This document shows, in pieces, positions 49,014 to 61,782 of a stretch of DNA of 64,000 nt (positions within the stretch are counted from its first letter, which is position 1; each line of letters opens with the position of its first letter). The stretch comes from Bradyrhizobium stylosanthis (lineage in GTDB: Bacteria; Pseudomonadota; Alphaproteobacteria; Rhizobiales; Xanthobacteraceae). Where the stretch lies: contig NZ_LVEM01000001.1 of the NCBI RefSeq assembly GCF_001641335.1, positions 780,580 to 844,579 of the forward strand, read 5' to 3'. Under the pieces are notes generated by a model, which was not told where the DNA came from, did no database searches, and saw only the letters and a program-made list of their open reading frames with translations. The translations under genes and the position numbers were made by a program.

Positions 49014-49027
49014 TTGACCTAAATCAA
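49014..49027. promoter_or_regulatory. FixK/FNR-type box upstream of the DUF3141-pta-ackA-fabI operon
   Basis: TTGACCTAAATCAA matches TTGA-N6-TCAA exactly. Its right end is 53 bases before the DUF3141 start. If it works as a class II activator site centred at -41.5, transcription would begin about 19 bases before the ATG. The family consensus is established knowledge; its use here is inferred from fit, placement and recurrence. Confidence 0.75.
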
Positions 49028-49080
49028 CACCCGCATGTCCGGCCCTCGTTGAATGGCCGTGCGCGACGGCGAGGTCGAAC

Positions 49081-51303
49081 ATGGCGATGGAAAATCTGAA
49101 ACTGCCCGATGGTCCGTTGTCGGGCCTTGTCGCATCCGCCGTCGAATATCTGGTCGATGCCGGACAGCGCAGCGTCCTGTTCCTCGACATCATGCGCCAG
49201 CGCGGCGACCAGTATCGCGAGCACGTCACGCAGACGGCGCCGCATGTGCTGCAATATGCTGCCGAATTGATCACCGACGGCCGCACGCTGGACGAGCCGG
49301 TCAATTATGCGCTGGTGCGCATCATTCCCCCCAAGGATGTCGAGATCGATATGAGCCGGCGGCCGTTCGTCGTGGTCGATCCGCGTGCCGGCCACGGTCC
49401 GGGCATCGGCGGCTTCAAGGCCGACAGCGAGATCGGCGTCGCGATGAAGGCGGGACATCCCTGCTATTTCATCGGCTTCCTGCCCGAGCCGGTGCCGGGC
49501 CAGACCATCGAGCGCATCGCGCGCGCCGAAGCGACATTCATCGAGACTGTTATCAGCCGCCACCCCGATGCCGACGGCAAGCCCTGCGTGATCGGCAACT
49601 GCCAGGCGGGCTGGGCCGTCATGATCCTGGCATCGCTGCGGCCGGAGCTGTTCGGTCCGCTGATCATCGCCGGCGCGCCGCTCGCCTATTGGGCCGGCGT
49701 GCACGGCAAATATCCGATGCGCTATTCCGGCGGACTGCTGGGCGGAAGCTGGCTGACGGCACTGACCAGCGATCTCGGCGCCGGTAAGTTCGACGGCGCC
49801 TGGCTGGTGCAGAACTTCGAGAACCAGAACCCGTCGAACACGCTCTGGACCAAGCAGTACAACGTCTATTCCAAGGTCGATACCGAGGCGGAGCGCTATC
49901 TCGACTTCGAGCGCTGGTGGGGCGGGCACGTCAACCTCAATGCCGAGGAGATCCAGTTCATCGTCGATGAACTGTTCATCGGCAACAATCTCGCCGCCGG
50001 GCGCATCGAGATGTCGGATGGACAGAAGGTCGACCTGCGCAACATCCGTTCGCCGATCGTGGTGTTCTGCTCCAAGGGCGACAACGTCACCCCGCCGCAG
50101 CAGGCGCTGGACTGGATCCTGGAATGCTATTCCGACGTCGATGAGATCAGGGCTTACGGCCAGACCATCGTCTATACCGTTCACGAGAACATCGGCCATC
50201 TCGGCATCTTCGTCTCCGGCGGCGTGGCGAAGAAGGAGCATGCGGAATTCTCCAGCAACATCGATCTGATCGACGTGCTGCCGCCGGGGCTCTACGAGGC
50301 CACGTTCGAGGCTCGCGGCGACAAGACGATCAACGCCGATCTCGCGGAAGGCCATTGGGTGATGCGCTGCGAGGCCCGCACCCTGGACGATATCCGCGCC
50401 ATGGGCGGCAATTCGCCGGAGGACGAGCGCCGCTTCGCAGCCGCCAAGCGCATCTCCGAGCTCAACCTCGCGGCCTATCAGAAATTCGTGCAGCCCTGGG
50501 TCAAGAAGATGGTGACGCCGCAAATGGCGGACTTCGCCCGCAACATGCATCCGCTGCGGCTGCAATATGAGGCCTTCAGCAGCAAGAATCCCTGGATGTC
50601 CAGCGTCAAATCGGCCGCCGACCGGGTCGAGGACAACCGCAGGCCGGTTTCGAAGGACAATCCGTTCCTGGCGTTCCAGGAGCAGATGTCCAAGCAGATC
50701 GTTCATGCGCTCGATAGCTGGCGCGACGCGCAGGAGGCGCTGAGCGAAACCATGTTCCTCAATCTCTACGGCTCGCCGGTGCTCCAGGCCGCCGTCGGCG
50801 TCGATCCGGAGTCTGTGCCCTCGCGCCGCCGCGAGATGTCGGACGAGCATCGCGCCATGCTCGAGAAGCGGATCGCCGAATTGAAGTCGCGTATCGGCGA
50901 GGGCGGCCTCCGCGAGGCGGCGCTGCGGGCGCTGCTTTATGTCGGCTCGGCGCGCGGCATGGTGGACGAGCGCAGCATCGAGGCGCTGCGCCAGGTCCGG
51001 CGCGACCAGGCCGGCGCCCGGATGACGCTGTCCGAATTCAAGATGCTGGTGCGGGAGCAGTTCTTCATGCTGCTGCTGGATCGGGAGCGCGCCCTGGCCG
51101 CCATTCCGGGCCTGTTGCCCGACGACATGAACAAGCGGCGCGCGGCCTTCGCCGCGATGCGCGAGGTGCTGTCGGCGAGCGAGGACATCACCGGCGAGCG
51201 CGCCAATCGCTTGCGGCGCGTTGCCGTGCTGTTTGGCCTGGACGGAGAGGGCGAGGTGACCTCCAACGTTGCCCCTTTCGACCCTCAGGCAAGAGCATCG
51301 TAG
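49081..51303 (+). CDS. DUF3141 protein, PHA-synthase-like alpha/beta-hydrolase fold
   Basis: The product is 740 residues. Residues ~70-420 form an alpha/beta-hydrolase fold resembling poly(3-hydroxyalkanoate) synthases: FVVVDPRAGHGPGIGGFK, the nucleophile elbow IGNCQAGWAV with Cys174 (PhaC has GxCxGG), SPIVVFCSKGDNVTPPQQAL and VHENIGHLGIF. The C-terminal ~300 residues are helical and specific to DUF3141. A Cys nucleophile suggests acyl transfer rather than plain hydrolysis. It is first in a tight operon with pta, ackA and fabI, downstream of a FixK/FNR box. The activity has not been established to my knowledge. Confidence 0.85.
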   Translation: MAMENLKLPDGPLSGLVASAVEYLVDAGQRSVLFLDIMRQRGDQYREHVTQTAPHVLQYAAELITDGRTLDEPVNYALVRIIPPKDVEIDMSRRPFVVVDPRAGHGPGIGGFKADSEIGVAMKAGHPCYFIGFLPEPVPGQTIERIARAEATFIETVISRHPDADGKPCVIGNCQAGWAVMILASLRPELFGPLIIAGAPLAYWAGVHGKYPMRYSGGLLGGSWLTALTSDLGAGKFDGAWLVQNFENQNPSNTLWTKQYNVYSKVDTEAERYLDFERWWGGHVNLNAEEIQFIVDELFIGNNLAAGRIEMSDGQKVDLRNIRSPIVVFCSKGDNVTPPQQALDWILECYSDVDEIRAYGQTIVYTVHENIGHLGIFVSGGVAKKEHAEFSSNIDLIDVLPPGLYEATFEARGDKTINADLAEGHWVMRCEARTLDDIRAMGGNSPEDERRFAAAKRISELNLAAYQKFVQPWVKKMVTPQMADFARNMHPLRLQYEAFSSKNPWMSSVKSAADRVEDNRRPVSKDNPFLAFQEQMSKQIVHALDSWRDAQEALSETMFLNLYGSPVLQAAVGVDPESVPSRRREMSDEHRAMLEKRIAELKSRIGEGGLREAALRALLYVGSARGMVDERSIEALRQVRRDQAGARMTLSEFKMLVREQFFMLLLDRERALAAIPGLLPDDMNKRRAAFAAMREVLSASEDITGERANRLRRVAVLFGLDGEGEVTSNVAPFDPQARAS

Positions 51304-51332
51304 CGCGGATTGGCGGAGACGGGAGTAACATC

Positions 51333-52292
51333 ATGTCGGCCGATACGACGCACGAGACCGGCAGCAAGTACGACCGGTTGATCGCGGCGGCCAGGGCCGC
51401 TCCCCCGACGCCGACCGTCGTCGTGCATCCCTGCGACGAGACGTCCCTGCGCGGGACCGTCGACAGCGCGAGTGCCGGCATCATCCGGCCAATCCTCGTC
51501 GGGCCGGAGCGGAGGATCAGGGACACGGCCGCAAAGTTCGATCTCGACATCTCCGGCTTTGAGATCGTTGACGCCGCGCATAGCGACGATGCCGCAGCCA
51601 AAGGCGTCGAGCTGATCCATGCCGCCAAGGGCGAGCTGCTGATGAAGGGCAGCCTGCACACCGACGAATTGATGCGTGCCGTCACCGCCAAGGTCGGCGG
51701 CCTGCGCACCGACCGGCGCATCAGCCATGTCTTCGTCATGGACGTGCCGGCCTATACCGACACCATCTTCGTCACGGATGCCGCGATCAACATCTTCCCT
51801 GATCTCGACGCCAAGCGCGACATCATCCAGAACGCGATCGATCTCTATAACCAGGCCGGCTTCGGCCGGACGCCGCGGGTTGCGATCCTGTCGGCGGTCG
51901 AGACCGTGACGTCGAAAATCCCCTCGACGATCGAGGCCGCGGCTCTCTGCAAAATGGCCGATCGCGGCCAGATCACCGGTGGCCTGCTCGATGGTCCGCT
52001 GGCGTTCGACAATGCAATCGACCCGGAAGCCGCACGGATCAAGGGCATCGTATCCGAGGTCGCCGGTCGGGCGCAGATCCTCGTTGTCCCGGACCTGGAG
52101 TCCGGCAACATGCTGGCCAAGAACCTCGCTTATTTCGCCAAGGCGGATGGCGCCGGCATCGTGCTCGGTGCGCGGGTGCCCGTCGTCCTGACGTCGCGCG
52201 CGGATTCGCCGCGTGCACGGATGGCCTCCTGCGCGGTCGCGGCGCTGTATGCGCACGCCCGGCGCCAGAAGGCGCCGACAGTGGCCGCGTGA
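51333..52292 (+). CDS. Phosphate acetyl-/butyryltransferase (short Pta/Ptb type)
   Basis: The product is 319 residues, the length of the catalytic domain alone (no DRTGG regulatory part). Motifs include [53 protein letters not shown] and [15 protein letters not shown]. It exchanges CoA and phosphate on an acyl group (acetyl or butyryl). The short form and the residue pattern are closer to phosphotransbutyrylase-like enzymes. It is followed after 5 bases by acetate kinase. Confidence 0.92.
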
Positions 52293-52297
52293 TCGCC

Positions 52298-53512
52298 ATG
52301 GAGACGATCCTCGTCGTCAACGCAGGCTCCTCCAGCGTCAAGTTTCAGGTCTATGCGATCGAGGGTGAGGGCACCCTTCGCCGGCACATCAAGGGACAGA
52401 TCGACGGCATCGGCAGCCGGCCGCGGCTGCGGGCAAGCGGCGCAGGCGGTGATGCGCTGGCCGATCGCGCCTATCCGATCGAGACCGTGCCTGACGTTCC
52501 GGCGGCGATGGCCGTTGCCGGCGCCTGGCTGCGCGACGAGCTGCGCGTCACGCCGATCGCGGTCGGGCACCGGGTCGTGCACGGGGGACCGGACTACGCA
52601 AAGCCGGTGCTGATCGATCATGGCGTGGTGTCGCGTCTCGAACGTTTCGTATCCCTGGCGCCGCTGCATCAGCCGCACAATCTCGCGCCGATCCGCTCGT
52701 TGCTTACGAATTTCCCGGCGCTGCCGCAGGTCGCGTGCTTCGACACGGCCTTCCATCGCACCCATGACGCCGTCGCGGACCACTACGCCATTCCGCATCA
52801 GCTCCATGCCGAGGGCGTCAGGCGTTACGGATTTCACGGGCTGTCCTACGAATACATCGCCCGGACTTTGCCGAGCGTGGCGCCCGACATCGCCAAGGGG
52901 CGCGTGATCGTCGCCCATCTCGGCAGCGGCGCCTCGATGTGCGCATTGAAGGACGGCCGCAGCGTCGAAAGCACGATGGGCTTCACGGCGCTCGACGGCC
53001 TGCCGATGGGAACGCGTCCCGGACAGATCGACCCCGGTGTGGTGCTCTACCTCATCTCCGAGAAGGGCATGCCGGCCGCAAAGGTGCAGGACTTTCTCTA
53101 CCGCGAATGCGGGCTGAAGGGCCTCTCGGGCATCAGCAACGATATGCGCGAGCTGGAAGCGAGCACCGACCCGCACGCGCGGCTCGCGATCGATTGTTTC
53201 GTTTACCGCATCGGCCTCAATGCCGGCATGCTGGCCGCCGCCCTGCAGGGGCTGGACGCCTTCGTGTTCACGGCCGGCATCGGCGAGAACTCGTCCTCGA
53301 TCCGCGCGCGCGTCGCCAGCCGGCTCGAATGGCTCGGCGCCGTGCTCGATGCCGGCGAGAACGCCCGCCATGCGCGGCTGATCTCGGAGGCTGGCAGCCG
53401 TATCCCCGTCTACGTCATCCCGACCGACGAGGAACTGATGATCGCGCAGCACACGCTGTCGCTGCTGATGAATGGCCAATCGCACAACACACGATCTGAG
53501 AGGGTGTCATGA
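52298..53512 (+). CDS. ackA: Acetate kinase
   Basis: The product is 404 residues from the ATG at 52298; a GTG at 52289 overlapping the pta stop is an alternative. ASKHA-fold motifs are present: [26 protein letters not shown], the Arg-containing [29 protein letters not shown], and [11 protein letters not shown]. It converts acetyl phosphate and ADP to acetate and ATP. With Pta it gives substrate-level ATP when oxygen is short. The stop overlaps fabI by four bases. Confidence 0.95.
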
Positions 53513-54297
53513 TCCCCGTATTCCCCGACAGCAAGGTGGCCCTCAAGGGCAAGAAGGGCCTGATCGTCGGCATCGCCAACGACCAGTCGATCGCTTGGGG
53601 TTGCGCGCGGGCGTTTCGCGCGCTCGGCGCCGATCTCGCCGTCACCTATCTGAACGATCGCGCCAAGAAACACGTCGAGCCGCTCGCCAAGGCGCTGGAG
53701 GCGCCGATCTTCATGCCGCTCGACGTCATGGTCGAGGGCCAGACAGAGGCGGTGTTCGAGCGTATCGCATCCGAGTGGGGGCAGCTCGACTTCCTGCTCC
53801 ATTCGATCGCCTTCTCGCCCAAGGAGGCCCTGCACGGACGCGTCGTCGACGTCGGCCGCGACGGCTTCCTCAAGACCATGGATGTTTCGTGCTGGTCGTT
53901 CATGCGCATGGCGCATCTTGCCGAGCCGCTGATGAAGAACGGCGGCACGTTGTTCACCATGACCTATTACGGCAGCCAGATGGTGGTCGAGAACTACAAC
54001 GTGATGGGCGTCGCCAAGGCCGCGCTTGAGGCCTCGGTTCGCTACATCGCTGCGGAGCTCGGTCCGAAGGGCATTCGCGTCCACGCGATCTCGCCGGGAC
54101 CGCTGGCGACCCGGGCCGCATCCGGCATTCCGGAGTTCGACGAGCTCATGGACAAGGCGCAATCGAAGGCGCCGGCGCGCAGCCTGGTCAGCATCGACGA
54201 TGTCGGCAATGCCACCGCGTTCCTCGCGCTCGACGGCGCCAAGCTGATTACCGGTGGCGTGCTCTACATCGACGGCGGCTACCACGTCATCGATTGA
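53509..54297 (+). CDS. fabI: Enoyl-[acyl-carrier-protein] reductase (NADH) FabI
   Basis: The product is 262 residues. FabI features are clear: the split nucleotide motif [13 protein letters not shown], the serine SIAFSP, and the YxxxxxxK pair in [13 protein letters not shown]. It reduces trans-2-enoyl thioesters with NADH. Placement in an acetate-kinase operon rather than with fatty-acid genes suggests a dedicated copy that may serve as an electron sink; at least one housekeeping fabI would be expected elsewhere. It is the last gene of the operon. Confidence 0.94.
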
Positions 54298-54478
54298 TCG
54301 CGCGGGGGCGTCCGCTGTCGCGGCCGGCGGGCTCGGAGCGAAGTGCTGATCGTGGCATCATGCCGGTGTTTTGCCCGACGGAACAATAGCTTTTTGGGGC
54401 TGCAGATTCGCTGATCGAAAAGCGTAACGATTCCAACCCGCCGCTACTGTGCATGGGGTTGTTTTCGAACTTTTTTGG

Positions 54479-54937
54479 TCAGCGGTAGTGCAGGGCGATC
54501 AGTTCGGCGACGCAGGCGGGCTTCTTGGCCCCCTCGATCTCGATCACGAGATGGTAGTTCACGCGCAGGCCGTCGGGCGGCACGTCTTCGGCTTCCGCAA
54601 CGCTGACGCGGCCGCGCAACTTTGAGCCCGCCGGCACCGGCGCGAGATATCTGATCCGGTCGGCGCCGTAGTTCAGCGTGTTGCGGAGCCCCTTCAAGCC
54701 GATCACCGAGCGGATGAACAGCGGGGCGAGCGCGAGCGACAGCAGGCCATGGGCGATGGTCTTGCCGCCGGGCATCTCCCTGGCTGCGCGCTCCTGGTCG
54801 ACATGGATCCACTGCTCGTCGCAGGTCGCTTCCGCGAACTGGTTGATGCGGTCCTGCGACACCTCGACCCAGTCGCTCACGCCGATCTCGGTGCCGACCG
54901 CGGATTTGATCTCGCTGAAATCGCTGAATATGCGCAT
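54479..54937 (-). CDS. MaoC-like (R)-enoyl-CoA hydratase
   Basis: The product is 152 residues from the ATG at 54937. The hot-dog fold carries the hydratase-2 Asp and His in CDEQWIHVDQERA (Asp40, His45) and TIAHGLLSLAL. Such enzymes hydrate crotonyl-CoA-type substrates to (R)-3-hydroxyacyl-CoA, the monomer form of PHA. It lies 11 bases after the CoA-transferase beta gene and converges on fabI. Confidence 0.9.
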   Translation of the reverse strand: MRIFSDFSEIKSAVGTEIGVSDWVEVSQDRINQFAEATCDEQWIHVDQERAAREMPGGKTIAHGLLSLALAPLFIRSVIGLKGLRNTLNYGADRIRYLAPVPAGSKLRGRVSVAEAEDVPPDGLRVNYHLVIEIEGAKKPACVAELIALHYR

Positions 54938-54948
54938 GATCCCCCTCG

Positions 54949-55599
54949 TCAGATTTGCATCTCCGGGACGGTGTCGGGAACGGTCAGTTCCGCTTCCGTC
55001 ACCGCCAACACCTCGCCGATGCTGATACCGGGCGCCGTCTCCAGCAGCGTCGCCTTGCCGCCGGGAAAGCCGATCACGGCCATGTCGGTCACCACGAGAT
55101 TGACCGGCCGCGCCGACGTCAACGGCAGGGAGCATTTGGCGACGATCTTCGACTTGCCCTTCGCGGCATGCTGCATGGCGACGATCACGCGCTTGGCGCC
55201 GCTGACGAGGTCCATTGCACCGCCCATGCCCGGAACCATCTTGCCCGGGATCATCCAGTTGGCGAGCAGGCCATGCGCGTCGACCTGGAGGCCGCCGAGC
55301 ACGGTGATGTCGACATGGCCGCCGCGGATCAGGCCGAACGACATCGCGCTGTCGAAGGTCGCTGCGCCCGGCAGCGCGCTGATCGGCCGGCCGCCGGCGT
55401 CGGTGAGCGTCGGGTGTGCCATGCCTTGCTCGGGAATCGGTCCGGTGCCGATCAGGCCGTTCTCCGACTGGAAGAACACTTTCAGATCCGCCGGAACGTA
55501 GTTCGCCACCAGCGTGGGAATGCCGATGCCGAGATTGACGAGGTTGCCGCTCTTCAATTCCTTGGCGACGCGCCGCGCGATGATGATCTGCGGATCCAT
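54949..55599 (-). CDS. atoA: 3-oxoacid/acetate CoA-transferase beta subunit (AtoA-like)
   Basis: The product is 216 residues. The family glutamate that becomes the enzyme-CoA thioester is in SENGLIGTGPIP. The glycine-rich GGHVDITVLGGLQVD and GKMVPGMGGAMDLVSGAKRV are canonical. With the alpha subunit it moves CoA between acids such as acetoacetate, acetate or butyrate. It follows the alpha gene by three bases. Confidence 0.92.
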   Translation of the reverse strand: MDPQIIIARRVAKELKSGNLVNLGIGIPTLVANYVPADLKVFFQSENGLIGTGPIPEQGMAHPTLTDAGGRPISALPGAATFDSAMSFGLIRGGHVDITVLGGLQVDAHGLLANWMIPGKMVPGMGGAMDLVSGAKRVIVAMQHAAKGKSKIVAKCSLPLTSARPVNLVVTDMAVIGFPGGKATLLETAPGISIGEVLAVTEAELTVPDTVPEMQI

Positions 55600-55602
55600 A
55601 TG

Positions 55603-56250
55603 TCACCCGTTCGTAATGAGGTAATCGACGAGGGGTGCCGGCGTCATGACGTGGTCGGGCGCGATGACGCCCACCGGCACGATGTTCTCGACCGTCACGA
55701 TCACCGTGTCCGCCGCCATCGCCATGATCGGGTTGAAGTTGCGTGCCGTCAGCGCATAGGCGAGGTTGCCGAGATAGTCGGCGAGGAAGGCGTGGACCAG
55801 CGCGTATTGTGCCCGCAACGCCGTCTCCAGCAGAAATGATTGGCCGTCGACCTCGATCTGGCGTTTGCCTTCCGCGACGAGGGTGCCGACGCCTGTCGGA
55901 GTCAGCACGCCGCCGAGTCCGCATCCGCCGGCCCGGATGCGTTCGACGAAGGTGCCTTGCGGCACGAGATCGACGGCGATCTGGTTCCCCAGCATCTGCT
56001 GCTGCGCCTTCGGATTGAGGCCGATATGCGTCGCCGTGAGCTTCGCGACCAGCGCCGCATCGAACAGCTTGCCGACGCCTCTGCCAGGTATGGCGGCGTC
56101 ATTGCAGATCAGGGACAGGCCGGACTTGTTCTGCCGGACGAGCTCGTCGAGCAGGCGCTCCGGCGTCCCGACTCCCATGAAACCGCCGACCATGACGCTG
56201 GCGCCGGCCGGGATCATCGCAACGGCTTCTTCGACGGAAACGGCCTTCAT
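55603..56250 (-). CDS. atoD: 3-oxoacid/acetate CoA-transferase alpha subunit (AtoD-like)
   Basis: The product is 215 residues. The N-terminal VMVGGFMGVGTPERLLDELV is the CoA-transferase 1 signature, followed by GGCGLGGVLTPTGVGTLV. It starts the atoD-atoA-maoC unit and lies 65 bases downstream of a FixK/FNR box. The AtoD/AtoA versus ScoA/ScoB assignment is by overall pattern, so the physiological acid is uncertain. Confidence 0.9.
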   Translation of the reverse strand: MKAVSVEEAVAMIPAGASVMVGGFMGVGTPERLLDELVRQNKSGLSLICNDAAIPGRGVGKLFDAALVAKLTATHIGLNPKAQQQMLGNQIAVDLVPQGTFVERIRAGGCGLGGVLTPTGVGTLVAEGKRQIEVDGQSFLLETALRAQYALVHAFLADYLGNLAYALTARNFNPIMAMAADTVIVTVENIVPVGVIAPDHVMTPAPLVDYLITNG

Positions 56251-56315
56251 GCAGGGACCTCCGCGGCGGGCAGACAGATGCTGGATCGATGTTGCGGGCG
56301 GGAGGTCTCGCAGTC

Positions 56316-56329
56316 TTGATCTGCGTCAA
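56316..56329. promoter_or_regulatory. FixK/FNR-type box upstream of atoDA-maoC
   Basis: TTGATCTGCGTCAA is a perfect TTGA-N6-TCAA site; with flanks it reads CTTGA...TCAAG, an even longer dyad. It lies 65 bases upstream of atoD and immediately after the stop of the 198-residue gene. The sequence is very close to classical FixK2 sites in Bradyrhizobium. Confidence 0.8.
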
Positions 56330-56338
56330 GGCCTCGGT

Positions 56339-56935
56339 TCATTCGCGCTGGACGATCCCGATGCTTTCCAGGGTCTCGTTCCAGAGCCGGCGCACTTCGG
56401 CATGCCGCCGCTCGAGCGCCGCGCTGACGGCATCCCGGAAAGGAAGCAGGTCGGGTCCCTTCAGAAACAGGATCTGTGCCTGCAACAGCCGGCTGCTCTC
56501 GAACTCGATGCGGCGCAGGGCCATGACGAAAGGATCGTTCTGGCTCGCTTCCGTCGGCAGCAGGGCGGCCGGCCGTATCCCCGCGTGAATCGCATGCGCA
56601 AGGGTCGCAAGGTGAATGGCCTGCGCGCGGGCGGGATCGGCGATGTCCTCGACCGGAGCGGGAAGCCAGGCCATCTCCCAGGACGCGACCATGTGGGTTA
56701 GCGCGAAATCCGGAACCCATGCGGTCGCGCGCGCGAGCAGCGAGACGATCTCGCTCTCGCGATAGAACTGGGCGTTCAACTCGACCTGCCAGGCCGCATC
56801 GAATTTCGCGGGCAGGGCGACGGCGAATTGCCGTGCCAGCGCACCATGGGCCGAGACCAGGAACGCGGCGACCCGCGTCTGCTGGCGCGGCTGCACGCGA
56901 CCGTCGGTCTCCAGCGGTCCAAGGAATGCGTTCAT
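56339..56935 (-). CDS. Protein of unknown function (198 aa) in the acyl/PHA cluster
   Basis: The 198 residues show no motif I recognise. The sequence is Ala/Leu-rich and mostly helical, with no signal peptide or membrane segment; it has Trp-containing stretches (HMVASWEMAWLPAP) and a charged C-terminal helix (ALERRHAEVRRLWNETLESI). The start overlaps the stop of the alpha/beta-hydrolase gene upstream (ATGA), so the two are coupled. A helical granule-associated or regulatory partner is conceivable but unproven. Confidence 0.7.
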   Translation of the reverse strand: MNAFLGPLETDGRVQPRQQTRVAAFLVSAHGALARQFAVALPAKFDAAWQVELNAQFYRESEIVSLLARATAWVPDFALTHMVASWEMAWLPAPVEDIADPARAQAIHLATLAHAIHAGIRPAALLPTEASQNDPFVMALRRIEFESSRLLQAQILFLKGPDLLPFRDAVSAALERRHAEVRRLWNETLESIGIVQRE

Positions 56936-57861
56936 GTCGTCGCCGTCCTCCGCACGGGGATCGCGCGCAGATGGTCGTAGCCCGCGGGAAATGGCGAATA
57001 GTCTCCGCCGGCATCGTCCGGCGCGATCAAGACTTGCTTGTTGCCCTTCCAGCGTCCAGCCATGACGTCTTCGGCGAAGCGGGCCAGGAGGTCAGCGGTG
57101 AGCGCGGCCTTCTCGAGCGTGAAGGCGTGGTAGGCCTTCGGGATGATCACGAGCGCGCTGTCGGGAATCTCCACACGCAGCGTTTCGTGCAGCGCGCGCG
57201 GCGTGAGGAAGTCGAACTCGCCGTTCAGGATCATGGTTGGGACGGTGATCGAGGAGAGCAGTGGCGTCAGCGGCTTGAAGTCGAGGAAGGACTCCATGAG
57301 GTTCTGCAGAGCGTAGACGTCGTTCACCAGCCATCCCTGCCGTTTCACGCTATCGAGCTTGTCCAGCAGCGGCTTCAGCCACTGGTCCGACAGGTTCATC
57401 GGCAGCAGCAGATCCTGGAGATAGCCGGTGCCGCCCAGGATGAGACCGGTACGCAGGGCGTTGCCGATCAGCAGGAGTTGCGGCGAAAGCTCTGCAAAGC
57501 AGCTCATCGGCACGAGCCCGGACAGCCGCGCGCCGTGCTCGATGGCATAGCGCAGCGCGATCAGGCCGCCGAAGCTGATGCCGCTGAGGAACACCGGACC
57601 ATCGCCGAGCTCACCGATCAGGCGATGCAGCACGGCGGTATGGTCGTCCTGATCGATGAACAAAGCGGGCTTGTCGGAAATGCCCTGGCCGAGCAGGTCG
57701 AAGGTCGCGACCCGAAAGTGCCGTGTGGTCAGCGCGTCGCGATAGCTGCCCCAGAGCTCGGAATATTGCGTAAGGCCGTTCACCAGGACATAGGTCGGCG
57801 CACCCGGCGGCCCGTCTAGCTCATAGCGGATACGATACGAGCCGTGACTGAGGAAGGGCAT
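56932..57861 (-). CDS. Alpha/beta-hydrolase
   Basis: The product is 309 residues from the ATG at 57861. The fold is canonical: VLVNGLTQYSELW (oxyanion loop), FDLLGQGISDKP, nucleophile elbow SGISFGGL with Ser96, an acidic strand ILNGEFDFLTP and the late His in PKAYHAFTLEK. It could be an esterase, thioesterase or PHA-oligomer hydrolase; sequence does not decide. It starts the two-gene unit with the unknown 198-residue protein and shares a FixK/FNR box with the divergent operon. Confidence 0.85.
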   Translation of the reverse strand: MPFLSHGSYRIRYELDGPPGAPTYVLVNGLTQYSELWGSYRDALTTRHFRVATFDLLGQGISDKPALFIDQDDHTAVLHRLIGELGDGPVFLSGISFGGLIALRYAIEHGARLSGLVPMSCFAELSPQLLLIGNALRTGLILGGTGYLQDLLLPMNLSDQWLKPLLDKLDSVKRQGWLVNDVYALQNLMESFLDFKPLTPLLSSITVPTMILNGEFDFLTPRALHETLRVEIPDSALVIIPKAYHAFTLEKAALTADLLARFAEDVMAGRWKGNKQVLIAPDDAGGDYSPFPAGYDHLRAIPVRRTATT

Positions 57862-57919
57862 AGCGGTGACCGGCCAGATGATGATGGCCGCGATCCTCAA
57901 CGCCGGCGTGCGGATTCCA

Positions 57920-57933
57920 TTGAGTTAAATCAA
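57920..57933. promoter_or_regulatory. FixK/FNR-type box centred between two divergent operons
   Basis: TTGAGTTAAATCAA matches TTGA-N6-TCAA. Exactly 58 bases separate it from the leftward start at 57861 and 58 from the rightward start at 57992, so one dimer could activate both sides with the same geometry. Confidence 0.8.
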
Positions 57934-57991
57934 ACCTCCCTCGGACGCCGGACCTAGCGTTCGCGCAAAACATTGCCAGGAGGAGTCCGCC

Positions 57992-60499
57992 ATGACCGGG
58001 GCAAAGGCGCTTCAGCGCTGCTGCGTCACCTTGATTGTGTTGCTGGTCGGCACCGCGCTTGCTGTCGCGCAGCCGTTCACGCGCCGCTCGTCGCAAGTGC
58101 AACATGACGGGCTGAAGAAGACTTACGAGATCGCGAACTTTCGCCTCGGCGGTAAATACGATCTGGCCAACCCGTCGAAATGGGAAAATGGCGGCGAGGG
58201 CGGAGTAACGCTGGAATCGCTGGGCGCCGGCAAGCTGCGTACGGCCTACATCGCAATCGGAAACCCACGCCGCAACGCGAGCGGCGAGATCACCAACGCG
58301 GTCGTGATCAACTCCTATTACTCCGGCGACTCCACCGACATGTACGAGCAGTGGGTCAAGGGCGCCGCTCTGTCAGGCGGCGTTCCCATCATCGGACCGG
58401 GACGGCCGATCGACACCGACCGCTACTATGTCGTCATGGTCGATCCGCTCGGGACATGGGGCGCGAGCAAGCCGTCCGACGGTCTCGGCATCAAGTTTCC
58501 GCAGTACAGTTACTATGACATGGTACAGGCGAATTACCGCCTGCTGCGCGACGAGCTGAAGGTCGCGCGCGTTGCGCTGGTCACGGGCGTCTCGATGGGC
58601 GGCACCCAGACCTATGTCTGGGGCGTGATGCATCCGGAATATGTCAGCGCCTTGATGCCGATCGGCGGCACCACGCAATCCGACGGCGATGACCCCGTCG
58701 GCAACTGGACCTTCCAGATGATGACGGCGGCGATCCAGGCCGATCCGGTCTGGCAGTCTACCAATGGCGATTACTACAAGCTGCCCAAGGAAAAGCATCC
58801 GGTGCCGGGCGTTGCGTTCGGCTGGTCGATTCTCGGAATGACCGGGTACGACTTCGCCTTCCGCACCAGCCAGAACTGGGGCGCCGTGCAGCCCGAAATC
58901 TTCTACTGGGATCCGCCGAACGAGAAGGCGGGATTGAACGTCGTCAACCGCGCCAAGCTCTACGACGCGGTCGACCTCGTCTGGCGCAACAGGGTCGGCG
59001 AGACTCACAACGTCAATCCCTATCTCGGCCGCATCCAGGCGCGCACGCTGGTGATGCACATCACCAACGATCTCTGGCTCAACTTCAAGCTGGCCCAGAA
59101 AGCGGTCGACCGGGTCCCCGGCGCCGATCTGATTGCTCAGGAAAGCCCGGTCGCCCATTACGGCGTGTTCCCGATCATCAACCAGCGCAAGAACGATCCG
59201 AAGTTCGTCGCCTTCATGGACGATGTTGCGAGCCTCGATCGCGCGCAGAAGTTCGTCGACAAGAACTACCGCGTCCCGGGCGTCGCCGAGACCATCGATC
59301 CCAAGAAATCCTTCTGGAAGGATTTCGTGACCTATCCCTATCCGGTCAAGTTCGCCAATGCCAAGGACAAGAGCGGCAACGCCTGGCAGATCGGCTACAT
59401 GGATGAATACAACGGCACCGACCGGGATCCGAAGGTGCTGGTCATCATCCATGGCAAGGGCGCGTTCGGCGGCCATTACGGCAACATCATGCAATACGCC
59501 CTGCGCAGCGGGTTGCGCGTGATCGTGCCCGACCTGCCGCACTACGGCATGTCCGGGCCCGGCAATCTCGACAAGAGCCCGGCGCGCACCATGCAGGACA
59601 TGCGCGAGGTCATCTACGACCTCGTCGTCAACCAACTCGACGTCAAGAAGGCCTATTACCTCGGCCATTCGCTCGGTGGCCAGTTCGTGACGGGCTATGC
59701 GCTGACCTGGCCGGATGCGGTGCAGGGGCTCGCGCTCGAGGCACCGTCGGGCCTCGAGGAATATCCGCGCGAAATCACCATCGCCAAGGACAAGAAGGCG
59801 AAGCTGTTCGACCCGGCCTTCGACCACGATTTCGACAAGTGGAAAGCCGTGTGGGACCAGACCGGCATCCTCGCGGCCGAGATGGGGCGTTCGGAGCAGA
59901 ACATCCGCGACTTCTTCTATTTCAAGAAGCGCGATCCCGACACCGGAGCGGTGTCGGCGGCCAAGAGTGGCTATTTCTTCAGCGACAGCGAATATGCCCG
60001 CTTCCATACCGAGCAGCGCGTCGGGCTGACCAAGGGCAACCCGAAGGAGCTCGAGCAATGGTGCAACGTCTTCATCTACGACATCCACACGATCGGCGCC
60101 GAGGTTCAGCAGGACGATCCGAAGAACCTCTATGAGCGGGTCACCCAGATCAAGGCGCCGATCTTCCTGGCCTTCGGCGACAAGGAGCCCTTCATCCCGA
60201 CGCCCGCCTTCAACGGGCTGACCGATCTCGGACGCGACGTCATCTCGCCGTTCATGACGCGGATGACGAATGCCGGCAACCGGCCGATCCTGAAGATCTA
60301 CCCCGACACCGGACACTTCATCCACACCGACAATCCCGTCGAATATTCGGTCGACGTCGTGGACTTCGTCATCAAAGGCGGTGTCGACACGTCATCGCCG
60401 GCCGGTATCGACCGCATGATCAAGGGCGCCGTCGTCTCGGCGTTGCCGGTGGCTCCGAGTCCTCCCGGTGCCGCGCCCACGGCCGGCCTGAACAAATAG
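57992..60499 (+). CDS. Exported protein with two tandem alpha/beta-hydrolase domains (835 aa)
   Basis: A signal peptide (VTLIVLLVGTALAVAQP) is followed by two hydrolase domains in one chain. Domain 1 (~35-420) resembles homoserine O-acetyltransferase (MetX)-like proteins, with TGVSMGGTQTYVW and Ser201. Domain 2 (~455-800) has VLVIIHGKGAFGGHYGN, DLPHYGMSGPG, LGHSLGGQF with Ser560 and YPDTGHFIHTDNP near residue 774. Both nucleophile elbows are intact. Each half alone would be a complete enzyme; the fusion suggests sequential hydrolysis of an ester or polymer in the periplasm. Role unknown. Confidence 0.85.
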   Translation: MTGAKALQRCCVTLIVLLVGTALAVAQPFTRRSSQVQHDGLKKTYEIANFRLGGKYDLANPSKWENGGEGGVTLESLGAGKLRTAYIAIGNPRRNASGEITNAVVINSYYSGDSTDMYEQWVKGAALSGGVPIIGPGRPIDTDRYYVVMVDPLGTWGASKPSDGLGIKFPQYSYYDMVQANYRLLRDELKVARVALVTGVSMGGTQTYVWGVMHPEYVSALMPIGGTTQSDGDDPVGNWTFQMMTAAIQADPVWQSTNGDYYKLPKEKHPVPGVAFGWSILGMTGYDFAFRTSQNWGAVQPEIFYWDPPNEKAGLNVVNRAKLYDAVDLVWRNRVGETHNVNPYLGRIQARTLVMHITNDLWLNFKLAQKAVDRVPGADLIAQESPVAHYGVFPIINQRKNDPKFVAFMDDVASLDRAQKFVDKNYRVPGVAETIDPKKSFWKDFVTYPYPVKFANAKDKSGNAWQIGYMDEYNGTDRDPKVLVIIHGKGAFGGHYGNIMQYALRSGLRVIVPDLPHYGMSGPGNLDKSPARTMQDMREVIYDLVVNQLDVKKAYYLGHSLGGQFVTGYALTWPDAVQGLALEAPSGLEEYPREITIAKDKKAKLFDPAFDHDFDKWKAVWDQTGILAAEMGRSEQNIRDFFYFKKRDPDTGAVSAAKSGYFFSDSEYARFHTEQRVGLTKGNPKELEQWCNVFIYDIHTIGAEVQQDDPKNLYERVTQIKAPIFLAFGDKEPFIPTPAFNGLTDLGRDVISPFMTRMTNAGNRPILKIYPDTGHFIHTDNPVEYSVDVVDFVIKGGVDTSSPAGIDRMIKGAVVSALPVAPSPPGAAPTAGLNK

Positions 60500-60507
60500 G
60501 GCCGCCC

Positions 60508-61404
60508 ATGCGGACGGTGCCAGGAGTTGCTACCGGAATTGCGCCGAGGGTGCAGGCGGGAGAAGTCAAGCTCGGCTGGCGGGAGTGGGGACGCGGCGAC
60601 GTGGCCGTCGTCTTCATCCACGGCAATCTCGCCAGCAAGGACTGGATCGAGCTCGCTGCGCCGTTGTTTCCAACGGGCCTTCGCGTCGTCGCGATCGACT
60701 GGCGCGGATGCGGCGACAGCGACCGGCCGAAGCCGGCCGCCGATTATTCCAACTATTCGATGCAGCAACATGCCGAGGACATGCTGGCTGCGCTCGCTAC
60801 GCTCGACATCGGCTATTGCCATCTGGCGACACACTCGACCGGCGGCATCATCGCCGCGCGGATGTTGCTGATGCAGCCGCAGCGCTTCGGCCGCGTCTTC
60901 GCGCTCGACCCGGTGACGCCGCTCGGCATGGCGTTCAATGCCGACCAAATCGGCCTGTTCCGCGAGATGATGGAGAGCAAGGAGCTGACCCGGAAGATCA
61001 TGGCGACGGCGGCCTCGTCCTTGTTTGAGCCCGAGAGCATGGCGCCGCATGCGGTCCCACGCTTCCGCGAGGGGCTGGCCGAGATCCAGGCGCTGTTCGA
61101 CCGCATCATCGACCAGACCTTTGGCGTCTCGGAAGGCATCTGGATCGGCACCCCAGTCAATCTCACGCGGGAGAGGGAAAGCCGCGAGCTCGAGCGCCGC
61201 ATGCCGGAGCTGCGGCATCCGCATCTCGTGGTGTGGGGCGAATGGGACGGCTGGATTCCGCCGGCCGACCTTCGCACCATGGCCGAGGCGATGCCGGATT
61301 GCCGCCTCGTGGTCGTGCCTGGCATCGGGCACTCGATGAACCTGGAAAGGCCCGCGCTCTATGCCGGATATTTCGGGGCCTGGTTCGGAGGACTTCCCGC
61401 GTAA
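60508..61404 (+). CDS. Alpha/beta-hydrolase
   Basis: The product is 298 residues. VVFIHGNLASKDW, DWRGCGDSDRP, the nucleophile elbow ATHSTGG with Ser110 (first Gly replaced by Thr), WGEWDGWIP and the His in GIGHSMNLE complete the triad. It lies 8 bases after the double-domain gene and 27 bases before the phasin gene. The family includes haloalkane dehalogenase-like and esterase enzymes; the context suggests an intracellular PHA-oligomer or acyl-ester hydrolase. Confidence 0.85.
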   Translation: MRTVPGVATGIAPRVQAGEVKLGWREWGRGDVAVVFIHGNLASKDWIELAAPLFPTGLRVVAIDWRGCGDSDRPKPAADYSNYSMQQHAEDMLAALATLDIGYCHLATHSTGGIIAARMLLMQPQRFGRVFALDPVTPLGMAFNADQIGLFREMMESKELTRKIMATAASSLFEPESMAPHAVPRFREGLAEIQALFDRIIDQTFGVSEGIWIGTPVNLTRERESRELERRMPELRHPHLVVWGEWDGWIPPADLRTMAEAMPDCRLVVVPGIGHSMNLERPALYAGYFGAWFGGLPA

Positions 61405-61431: not shown

Positions 61432-61782
61432 ATGGCAGAGATCAACGCGTCCGCCGAAGGCGTCCGCAACGCACTGACCGAGGCGCTCGGTCGCCTGCGC
61501 AAGGCCAATGCAGATTATTTCGAGCTGTTGGAGAAGAGCCTTGGCTCGTCGCCATTACCGATCGCGAACCAGGCCAAGGAGGTCTGCAGCTTCATGCAGC
61601 GCAACACCACCGCGACGTTCGATCTCGGCGAGAAGCTGATCCACGCCAACAACGTGCAGGATGCGCTCAAGCTGCAATCCGATTTCTTCCAGGACCAGAT
61701 GCGCTCGCTGACCGATCAGGCCAGGACCATGGGCGAGTCCGCGATGAAGGCGGCAGGCGGCTTGTTCAGTCCGAAGAGCTGA
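61432..61782 (+). CDS. Phasin-family protein (granule-associated)
   Basis: The 116 residues are helical and amphipathic: ANADYFELLEKSLG, QRNTTATFDLGEKLI and LQSDFFQDQMRSLTDQARTMG, the last matching the phasin motif xxQSxFxxxQxxxLxxQA. Phasins coat polyhydroxyalkanoate granules. Strong AAAGGAGAGG lies upstream. It ends the hydrolase-hydrolase-phasin unit and is the main reason to link this cluster to polymer storage. Confidence 0.88.
   Translation: MAEINASAEGVRNALTEALGRLRKANADYFELLEKSLGSSPLPIANQAKEVCSFMQRNTTATFDLGEKLIHANNVQDALKLQSDFFQDQMRSLTDQARTMGESAMKAAGGLFSPKS

Follow-up and report, generated by a model that had tools for sequence, protein, structure and literature searches.

Control of a polymer gene cluster by an FNR-type regulator has been described in Rhodobacter sphaeroides, where FnrL binds at RSP1257-4, annotated phbCfabI, with regulation given as '+' and the site as TTGAGcaagATCAA; chromatin immunoprecipitation data exist for this locus (PMC2908626). 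MppG acts as a repressor of RSP_1257-4 as well (PMC4263372), and in R. sphaeroides over-expressing RSP_1257 as phaC2, polymerase activity rose from 0.7 to 3.4 U/g (PMC6390342). In some Rhizobiales, control of phbC by FnrN/FixK has been predicted (PMC4999443). Here we analyze a window of 64 kb (the whole stretch of DNA under study, from Bradyrhizobium stylosanthis contig NZ_LVEM01000001.1), which contains a cluster of polymer and acetate genes in four apparent transcription units, each preceded by the 14-bp palindrome TTGA-N6-TCAA. The three boxes concerned are very probably sites of a CRP/FNR-type activator at four class II promoters, with FixK2 as the most likely regulator, and the cluster is probably a low-oxygen regulon activated by FixK2.

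The fate of stored polyhydroxybutyrate in bacteroids and in microoxic bradyrhizobia is a standing question. If all four polymer and acetate units are under a low-oxygen switch that is conserved, defined promoters and genes are at hand for testing polyhydroxybutyrate use.

Placement and conservation of the boxes

The three sites that the original prediction had located, at 49014, 56316 and 57920, are all present, and the distances it gave from box to start codon for the four apparent transcription units (53, 65 and 58/58 bp) are exact. Its observation that other gaps lack an equally good site holds for the convergent gap 54298-54478, which contains no TTGA-N6-TCAA even at one mismatch. The wording that three perfect boxes define the regulon is a slight overreach, as a fourth perfect box in coding DNA had been missed (Table 1). 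The place homologous to this fourth match is a perfect box in 7/45 loci and thus poorly conserved; the match probably has no functional role.

Conservation was scored in orthologous loci, for which the best 80 among 334 retained were used; these are therefore the nearest relatives, nearly all Bradyrhizobium by title; matches below 55% identity, alignments starting after residue 25 and loci with less than 150 bp upstream were dropped, so that n is below 80 for most genes. A perfect box lies within 200 bp before DUF3141 in 79/80 loci, before scoA in 65/65, before abhA in 40/46 and before abh2 in 38/43, whereas none of the 375 upstream regions of six operon-internal genes has one (ackA 0/76, fabI 0/76, maoC 0/64, scoB 0/68, the gene for the 198-aa protein 0/46 and abhC 0/45). 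The phasin gene could be scored in 3 loci, one of which has a box at 181 bp, and the reversed control pattern occurs in a single upstream region among all those scored. In the only DUF3141 locus that lacks a perfect box, a candidate with one mismatch lies 58 bp upstream, and of the six abhA misses five carry a one-mismatch box at 58-59 bp; all of these fit the looser published FixK2 consensus TTGA/C-N6-T/GCAA. Divergent abhA/abh2 pairs have exactly one perfect box with near-equal arms in 40/45 loci, suggesting that one dimer may serve either direction, probably not both simultaneously.

The sites are kept beyond the flanking DNA. Variation is present at the six middle bases of the box, where the mean consensus frequency is 0.80-0.87, and is greater in the flanks, at 0.49-0.63; the half-sites are constant in this comparison because only perfect boxes were selected, and two scoA boxes, at 139 and 140 bp, fell outside the distance range used here and for the promoter-layout counts. 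Over the 90 bp around the DUF3141 box the mean pairwise identity is 0.34, and 57 of the 79 sequences are representatives that share less than 70% identity. In a genome survey, 15 of 41 genomes (own included) encode a near full-length DUF3141 orthologue at at least 74% identity, and all 15 have the perfect box upstream of it; this set shares at least six members with the 80 loci, so that the two are not independent and the 80 loci give the main counts. Matches of the window's DUF3141 to Bradyrhizobium contigs reach 94% identity.

Rearranged loci provide a natural experiment for the placement of boxes at unit heads. Where pta directly follows DUF3141, no box precedes it in any of 73 loci, and where it is detached by approximately 6 kb, pta-ackA-fabI carries two boxes of its own in 4/4 loci (including L056, L057 and L058), titled Bradyrhizobium lablabi (two), B. 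jicamae and Bradyrhizobium sp. LMTR 3. In a further locus (L049) the sco operon lies elsewhere in the cluster, still with its box.

Site density was determined with the consensus TTGA-N6-TCAA and no weight matrix. The window contains 4 matches compared to a mean of 0.25 and a maximum of 3 in shuffles, 0/100 of which reach 4. Over the whole genome, all contigs taken together, 158 sites were counted, compared with 31 occurrences of the reversed pattern that served as control. Intergenic or coding position was assigned for contig C1 (2.45 Mb, 28% of the genome), where all 45 sites were classified: 27/45 are intergenic, 23 of them at most 200 bp upstream of a called gene. As approximately 20% of the sampled DNA is intergenic, the intergenic site density is 6-fold higher (0.056/kb vs 0.009/kb in coding DNA; binomial P ~4e-9). 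The separate background sample of 360 kb (18 stretches of 20 kb) yielded 2 coding and 2 intergenic sites. Genes were called by codon usage, which may misplace starts and the edges of short stretches. The three promoter gaps of the cluster (845 bp) hold 3 sites where 0.047 would be expected from the already enriched intergenic density of C1 (Poisson P ~2e-5).

Promoter layout, regulator and rival explanations

In class II geometry the box is centered at about -41.5, with a hexamer at -10. At all four promoters the best conserved hexamer follows the box at a distance of 20-23 bp (gaps of 20-22 and of 21-23 bp tie), consistent with the layout predicted by class II CRP/FNR activation. Published promoters agree in part: nosR, under FixK2 control, has one start 40.5 bp from the box axis (PMC5582078), and the pioABC box at -44.5 is assigned to class II (PMC3050613). 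Within one mismatch and at gaps of 21-23 bp, TTGAAT is present in 47/79 DUF3141 loci; the counts are 46/63 for CAACAT (scoA), 33/40 for GAGGAT (abhA) and 35/38 for TAGCGT (abh2). The profile over gaps 0-32 peaks at this spacing in all four, the largest shuffle maxima being 11, 12, 7 and 8; as shuffles destroy relatedness, the comparison from gap to gap is the better control, and the abhA profile has a second peak immediately 3' of the box (32/40). The spacing from box to putative -10 element is thus approximately 22 bp, as expected for class II; the conserved hexamers fit the -10 consensus only loosely.

The genome encodes FixK2, with a phmmer match to PDB 4i2o over all 232 residues (E 1.3e-141). 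In an alignment judged by eye the protein is approximately 94% identical to B. diazoefficiens FixK2 (13 differences in 232), and it has a cysteine at the place of the serine in the crystallized 4i2o protein. An open reading frame resembling a FixJ-type response regulator is located just upstream of fixK2 (by eye). Two other genes serve as positive controls. In ccoN a perfect box precedes the matched part by ~300 bp, and a PhaC-type gene on contig C16 has two perfect boxes, ~310 and ~370 bp before its own matched part. This PhaC-type gene (L255, G000:C16:265557-267143) is perhaps the counterpart of the FixK2 target phaC2.

The reading of the cluster as a low-oxygen regulon, put forward in the original prediction, is supported by the conserved boxes, the class II layout, the FixK2 gene, the ccoN box and the precedent in R. 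sphaeroides. We infer that low oxygen is the signal and that FixK2, which FixLJ induces under low oxygen, would activate, rather than repress, the four promoters: the first box would drive DUF3141-pta-ackA-fabI, the scoA box scoA-scoB-maoC, and the shared box the divergent unit of abhA and the 198-aa protein as well as the unit of abh2, abhC and phasin. Under low oxygen the cell may then mobilize or remodel polyhydroxybutyrate, and acyl-CoA may be routed via hydratase, reductase, CoA transferase and Pta-AckA, making ATP by acyl-phosphate and consuming reductant.

Several points weigh against this reading. For nosR a second start lies 67.5 bp from the box axis, and -35/-10 elements could not be recognized by the authors (PMC5582078), so that the -10 reading is no general rule. 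For B. diazoefficiens, 'blr34' is absent from the main text of PMC6515984 and blr345/blr346 from that of PMC9104804, two papers on low oxygen or FixK2, supplements being outside the search; PMC7888657 gave no match for cluster genes, and in a partial literature search without supplements no paper was found showing FixK2 control of this Bradyrhizobium cluster. Outside the genus, a perfect box lies within 200 bp in only 1 of 13 distant DUF3141 loci (12 long matches from other genomes plus G034, in 12 genomes altogether), 8 of which keep pta, ackA and fabI within ~4 kb; the idea that FNR controls the DUF3141 module in all Alphaproteobacteria is unsupported. The counts for abhA and abh2, which share one box, are not independent, and the four loci with detached pta, judged by their titles, are probably one clade and hence one event. 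Finally, in a B. diazoefficiens phaR mutant at 0.5% oxygen, blr3456, which heads the predicted operon blr3456-3459, is up 7.2-fold, and pta (blr3457), ackA (blr3458) and the phasin gene phaP6 (blr3464) rise as well (PMC10888616); gene order and names suggest that this is the same cluster, and the strong de-repression means that another regulator matters too.

Chance palindromes can be ruled out with near certainty. That chance is hard to accept, as originally predicted, does not follow from clustering, which is unremarkable by itself: three sites fall within 8.9 kb in 38% of 20,000 random placements of 45 sites on C1, and the fourth perfect box lies within a gene. The case rests on conservation and position instead, since boxes that are kept genus-wide at the same promoters, at unit heads only, while the surrounding DNA diverges, are not explained by chance. 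Which protein uses them is less certain. An Fe-S protein of the FnrN type, a second FixK-like protein or a nitric oxide (NO)-sensing NnrR type could be the actor, in which case the signal may be anoxia or NO and not FixLJ-sensed microoxia; the genome also encodes, by eye, several FixK-like proteins and one that resembles FNR and carries a cluster of cysteines near its N-terminus, the comparable operon of R. sphaeroides is under FnrL, and the FNR, DNR and FixK motifs are reported to be virtually identical (PMC2908626), so that the box sequence cannot tell which type acts. Nevertheless, the group containing Bradyrhizobium has a reduced FNR regulon and a well-conserved FixK regulon (PMC2908626), and we consider another CRP/FNR protein rather unlikely.

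The phaR mutant data also fit a cluster controlled mainly by PhaR through polymer sensing, with boxes that give little oxygen control. This is improbable, as the FixK box before DUF3141 is perfect in 79/80 loci whereas the strong PhaR-type site TGCN3GCA precedes it in 2/80 against 6.1 expected, the looser published motif being outside this test. As a conserved PhaR-type site TGCN3GCA was rejected, its counts at the four promoters being close to or under those expected, with 6/64, 4/46 and 2/43 in the other sets (expected 5.3, 3.6 and 3.6). A 17-mer built by joining two PhaR motifs that overlap at blr3456 (PMC10888616), aimed at the USDA 110 promoter, had no match among the loci. PhaR and FixK-box controls can moreover act together, and one may speculate that PhaR repression masks induction in the wild type. 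We tentatively entertain, while thinking it doubtful, that the cluster switches polymer fermentation on in response to two inputs. FixK2 would then signal low oxygen, and PhaR, set free by the presence of polymer granules, would signal fuel; together they would open a route from polyhydroxybutyrate through MaoC, FabI, CoA transferase and Pta-AckA. If true, nodule bacteria and relatives of theirs that live freely could by this route gain ATP and dispose of reductant in the absence of oxygen. Activation by FixK2 at the four promoters remains the reading that we prefer.

Gene content of the cluster

The features of the cluster are listed in Table 1.

Table 1. Boxes, putative promoter elements and genes of the cluster, in coordinates of the window.
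Feature	Position	Strand	Details
FixK/FNR box TTGACCTAAATCAA	49014..49027	+	53 bp 5' of DUF3141 ATG
Putative -10 element TTGAAT of DUF3141	49050..49055	+	22 bp 3' of box
DUF3141 protein, PhaC-like alpha/beta-hydrolase fold	49081..51303	+	Pfam PF11339, 975 bits
pta, phosphate acetyltransferase (PTA/PTB family)	51333..52292	+	NF008852, 516 bits (cut-off 413)
ackA, acetate/propionate-family kinase	52289..53512	+	TIGR00016, 343 bits (cut-off 293)
fabI-type enoyl reductase	53509..54297	+	NF005717, 447 bits (cut-off 337)
MaoC-like enoyl-CoA hydratase	54479..54937	-	PF01575
scoB, 3-oxoacid CoA-transferase subunit B	54949..55599	-	TIGR02428
scoA, CoA-transferase subunit A	55603..56250	-	TIGR02429
Putative -10 element CAACAT of scoA	56289..56294	-	21 bp 3' of box
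FixK/FNR box of scoA	56316..56329	-	65 bp from ATG
198-aa all-helical protein	56339..56935	-	confident predicted model, without family match
abhA, alpha/beta hydrolase	56932..57861	-	PF00561
Putative -10 element GAGGAT of abhA	57893..57898	-	21 bp 3' of box
Single shared FixK/FNR box, divergent abhA/abh2	57920..57933	.	58 bp to each ATG
Putative -10 element TAGCGT of abh2	57955..57960	+	21 bp 3' of box
abh2, 835 aa, two alpha/beta-hydrolase regions	57992..60499	+	profile searches
Fourth perfect TTGA-N6-TCAA match	58934..58947	.	within abh2 coding region
abhC, alpha/beta hydrolase	60508..61404	+	PF00561
Phasin	61432..61782	+	PF09361, 45 bits (cut-off 24.9)

Against the curated PhaC models the DUF3141 protein scores 25 bits (cut-off 365) and 22 bits (cut-off 623). 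Its predicted model (mean pLDDT 81.5), compared with the PDB, has PhaC in the top seven rows (Z 23.2-24.4, rmsd 3.1-4.2, 299-313 aligned), followed by a lipase (Z 21.3); Foldseek ranks PhaC first too. Cys174, Asp334 and His373 are invariant in 27 aligned sequences and may correspond to the Cys-Asp-His triad of PhaC; the PhaC profile alignment spans the Asp region only. A second DUF3141 paralogue (on G000:C16) has no perfect box, and no match to other cluster genes within 19 kb. A distant alphaproteobacterial DUF3141 operon (L178) has two perfect boxes close upstream.

In a fused NCBI family, 'enoyl-CoA hydratase/phosphate acetyltransferase', the C-terminal part matches Pta and the N-terminal part matches the separate MaoC weakly, below the cut-off, suggesting a joint action of the hydratase with Pta. 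As identities of Pta and AckA, phosphate butyryltransferase and butyrate kinase were rejected, their models scoring below the cut-offs, which does not settle the substrate range. The 198-aa protein, conserved in the hydrolase unit, has no Pfam or NCBIfam match, and its best Foldseek match, a ferritin-like enzyme (E 0.026, TM ~0.5), is not decisive for a function.

Elsewhere on C1, a region of 24 kb (G000:C1:1438121-1461836; L144, L145) has nine perfect boxes, eight of them called intergenic. The boxes lie near genes for an Orn/Lys/Arg decarboxylase, for a protein of aminotransferase fold adjacent to a permease of the Asp:Ala-exchanger type, for PPK2 and for a CRP-type and a LuxR-type response regulator. 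This is a second apparent low-oxygen island, perhaps for energy metabolism by decarboxylation and antiport.

Comparison with described systems

The cluster shares with the FixLJ-FixK2 regulon of B. diazoefficiens the box, TTGA/C-N6-T/GCAA (PMC9104804), a similar box distance and FixK2 itself, and differs in that its genes are missing from the main texts of PMC6515984 and PMC9104804. Like the R. palustris pioABC promoter, where a FixK box called class II is accompanied by a second box further upstream (PMC3050613), the detached pta is preceded by two boxes in a similar layout; the pioABC system concerns other genes, and its box is centered at -44.5 (PMC3050613). The predicted control of phbC in Rhizobiales likewise places a low-oxygen regulator before a polymer synthase gene, possibly but not necessarily the one considered here; the cluster and its four units are not named there (PMC4999443). 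RSP1257-4 of R. sphaeroides is similar in its four locus tags, which include fabI and a gene of PhaC type, in its one perfect FNR box and in its positive regulation; RSP_1257 is supposed to be a DUF3141 protein, and the two middle genes pta and ackA. The regulator there is FnrL and not FixK2, and separate CoA-transferase and hydrolase units are unmentioned in the excerpts of PMC2908626. As FNR-type control of phbCfabI has already been published, the Bradyrhizobium cluster adds well-supported new members to a known type of regulon.

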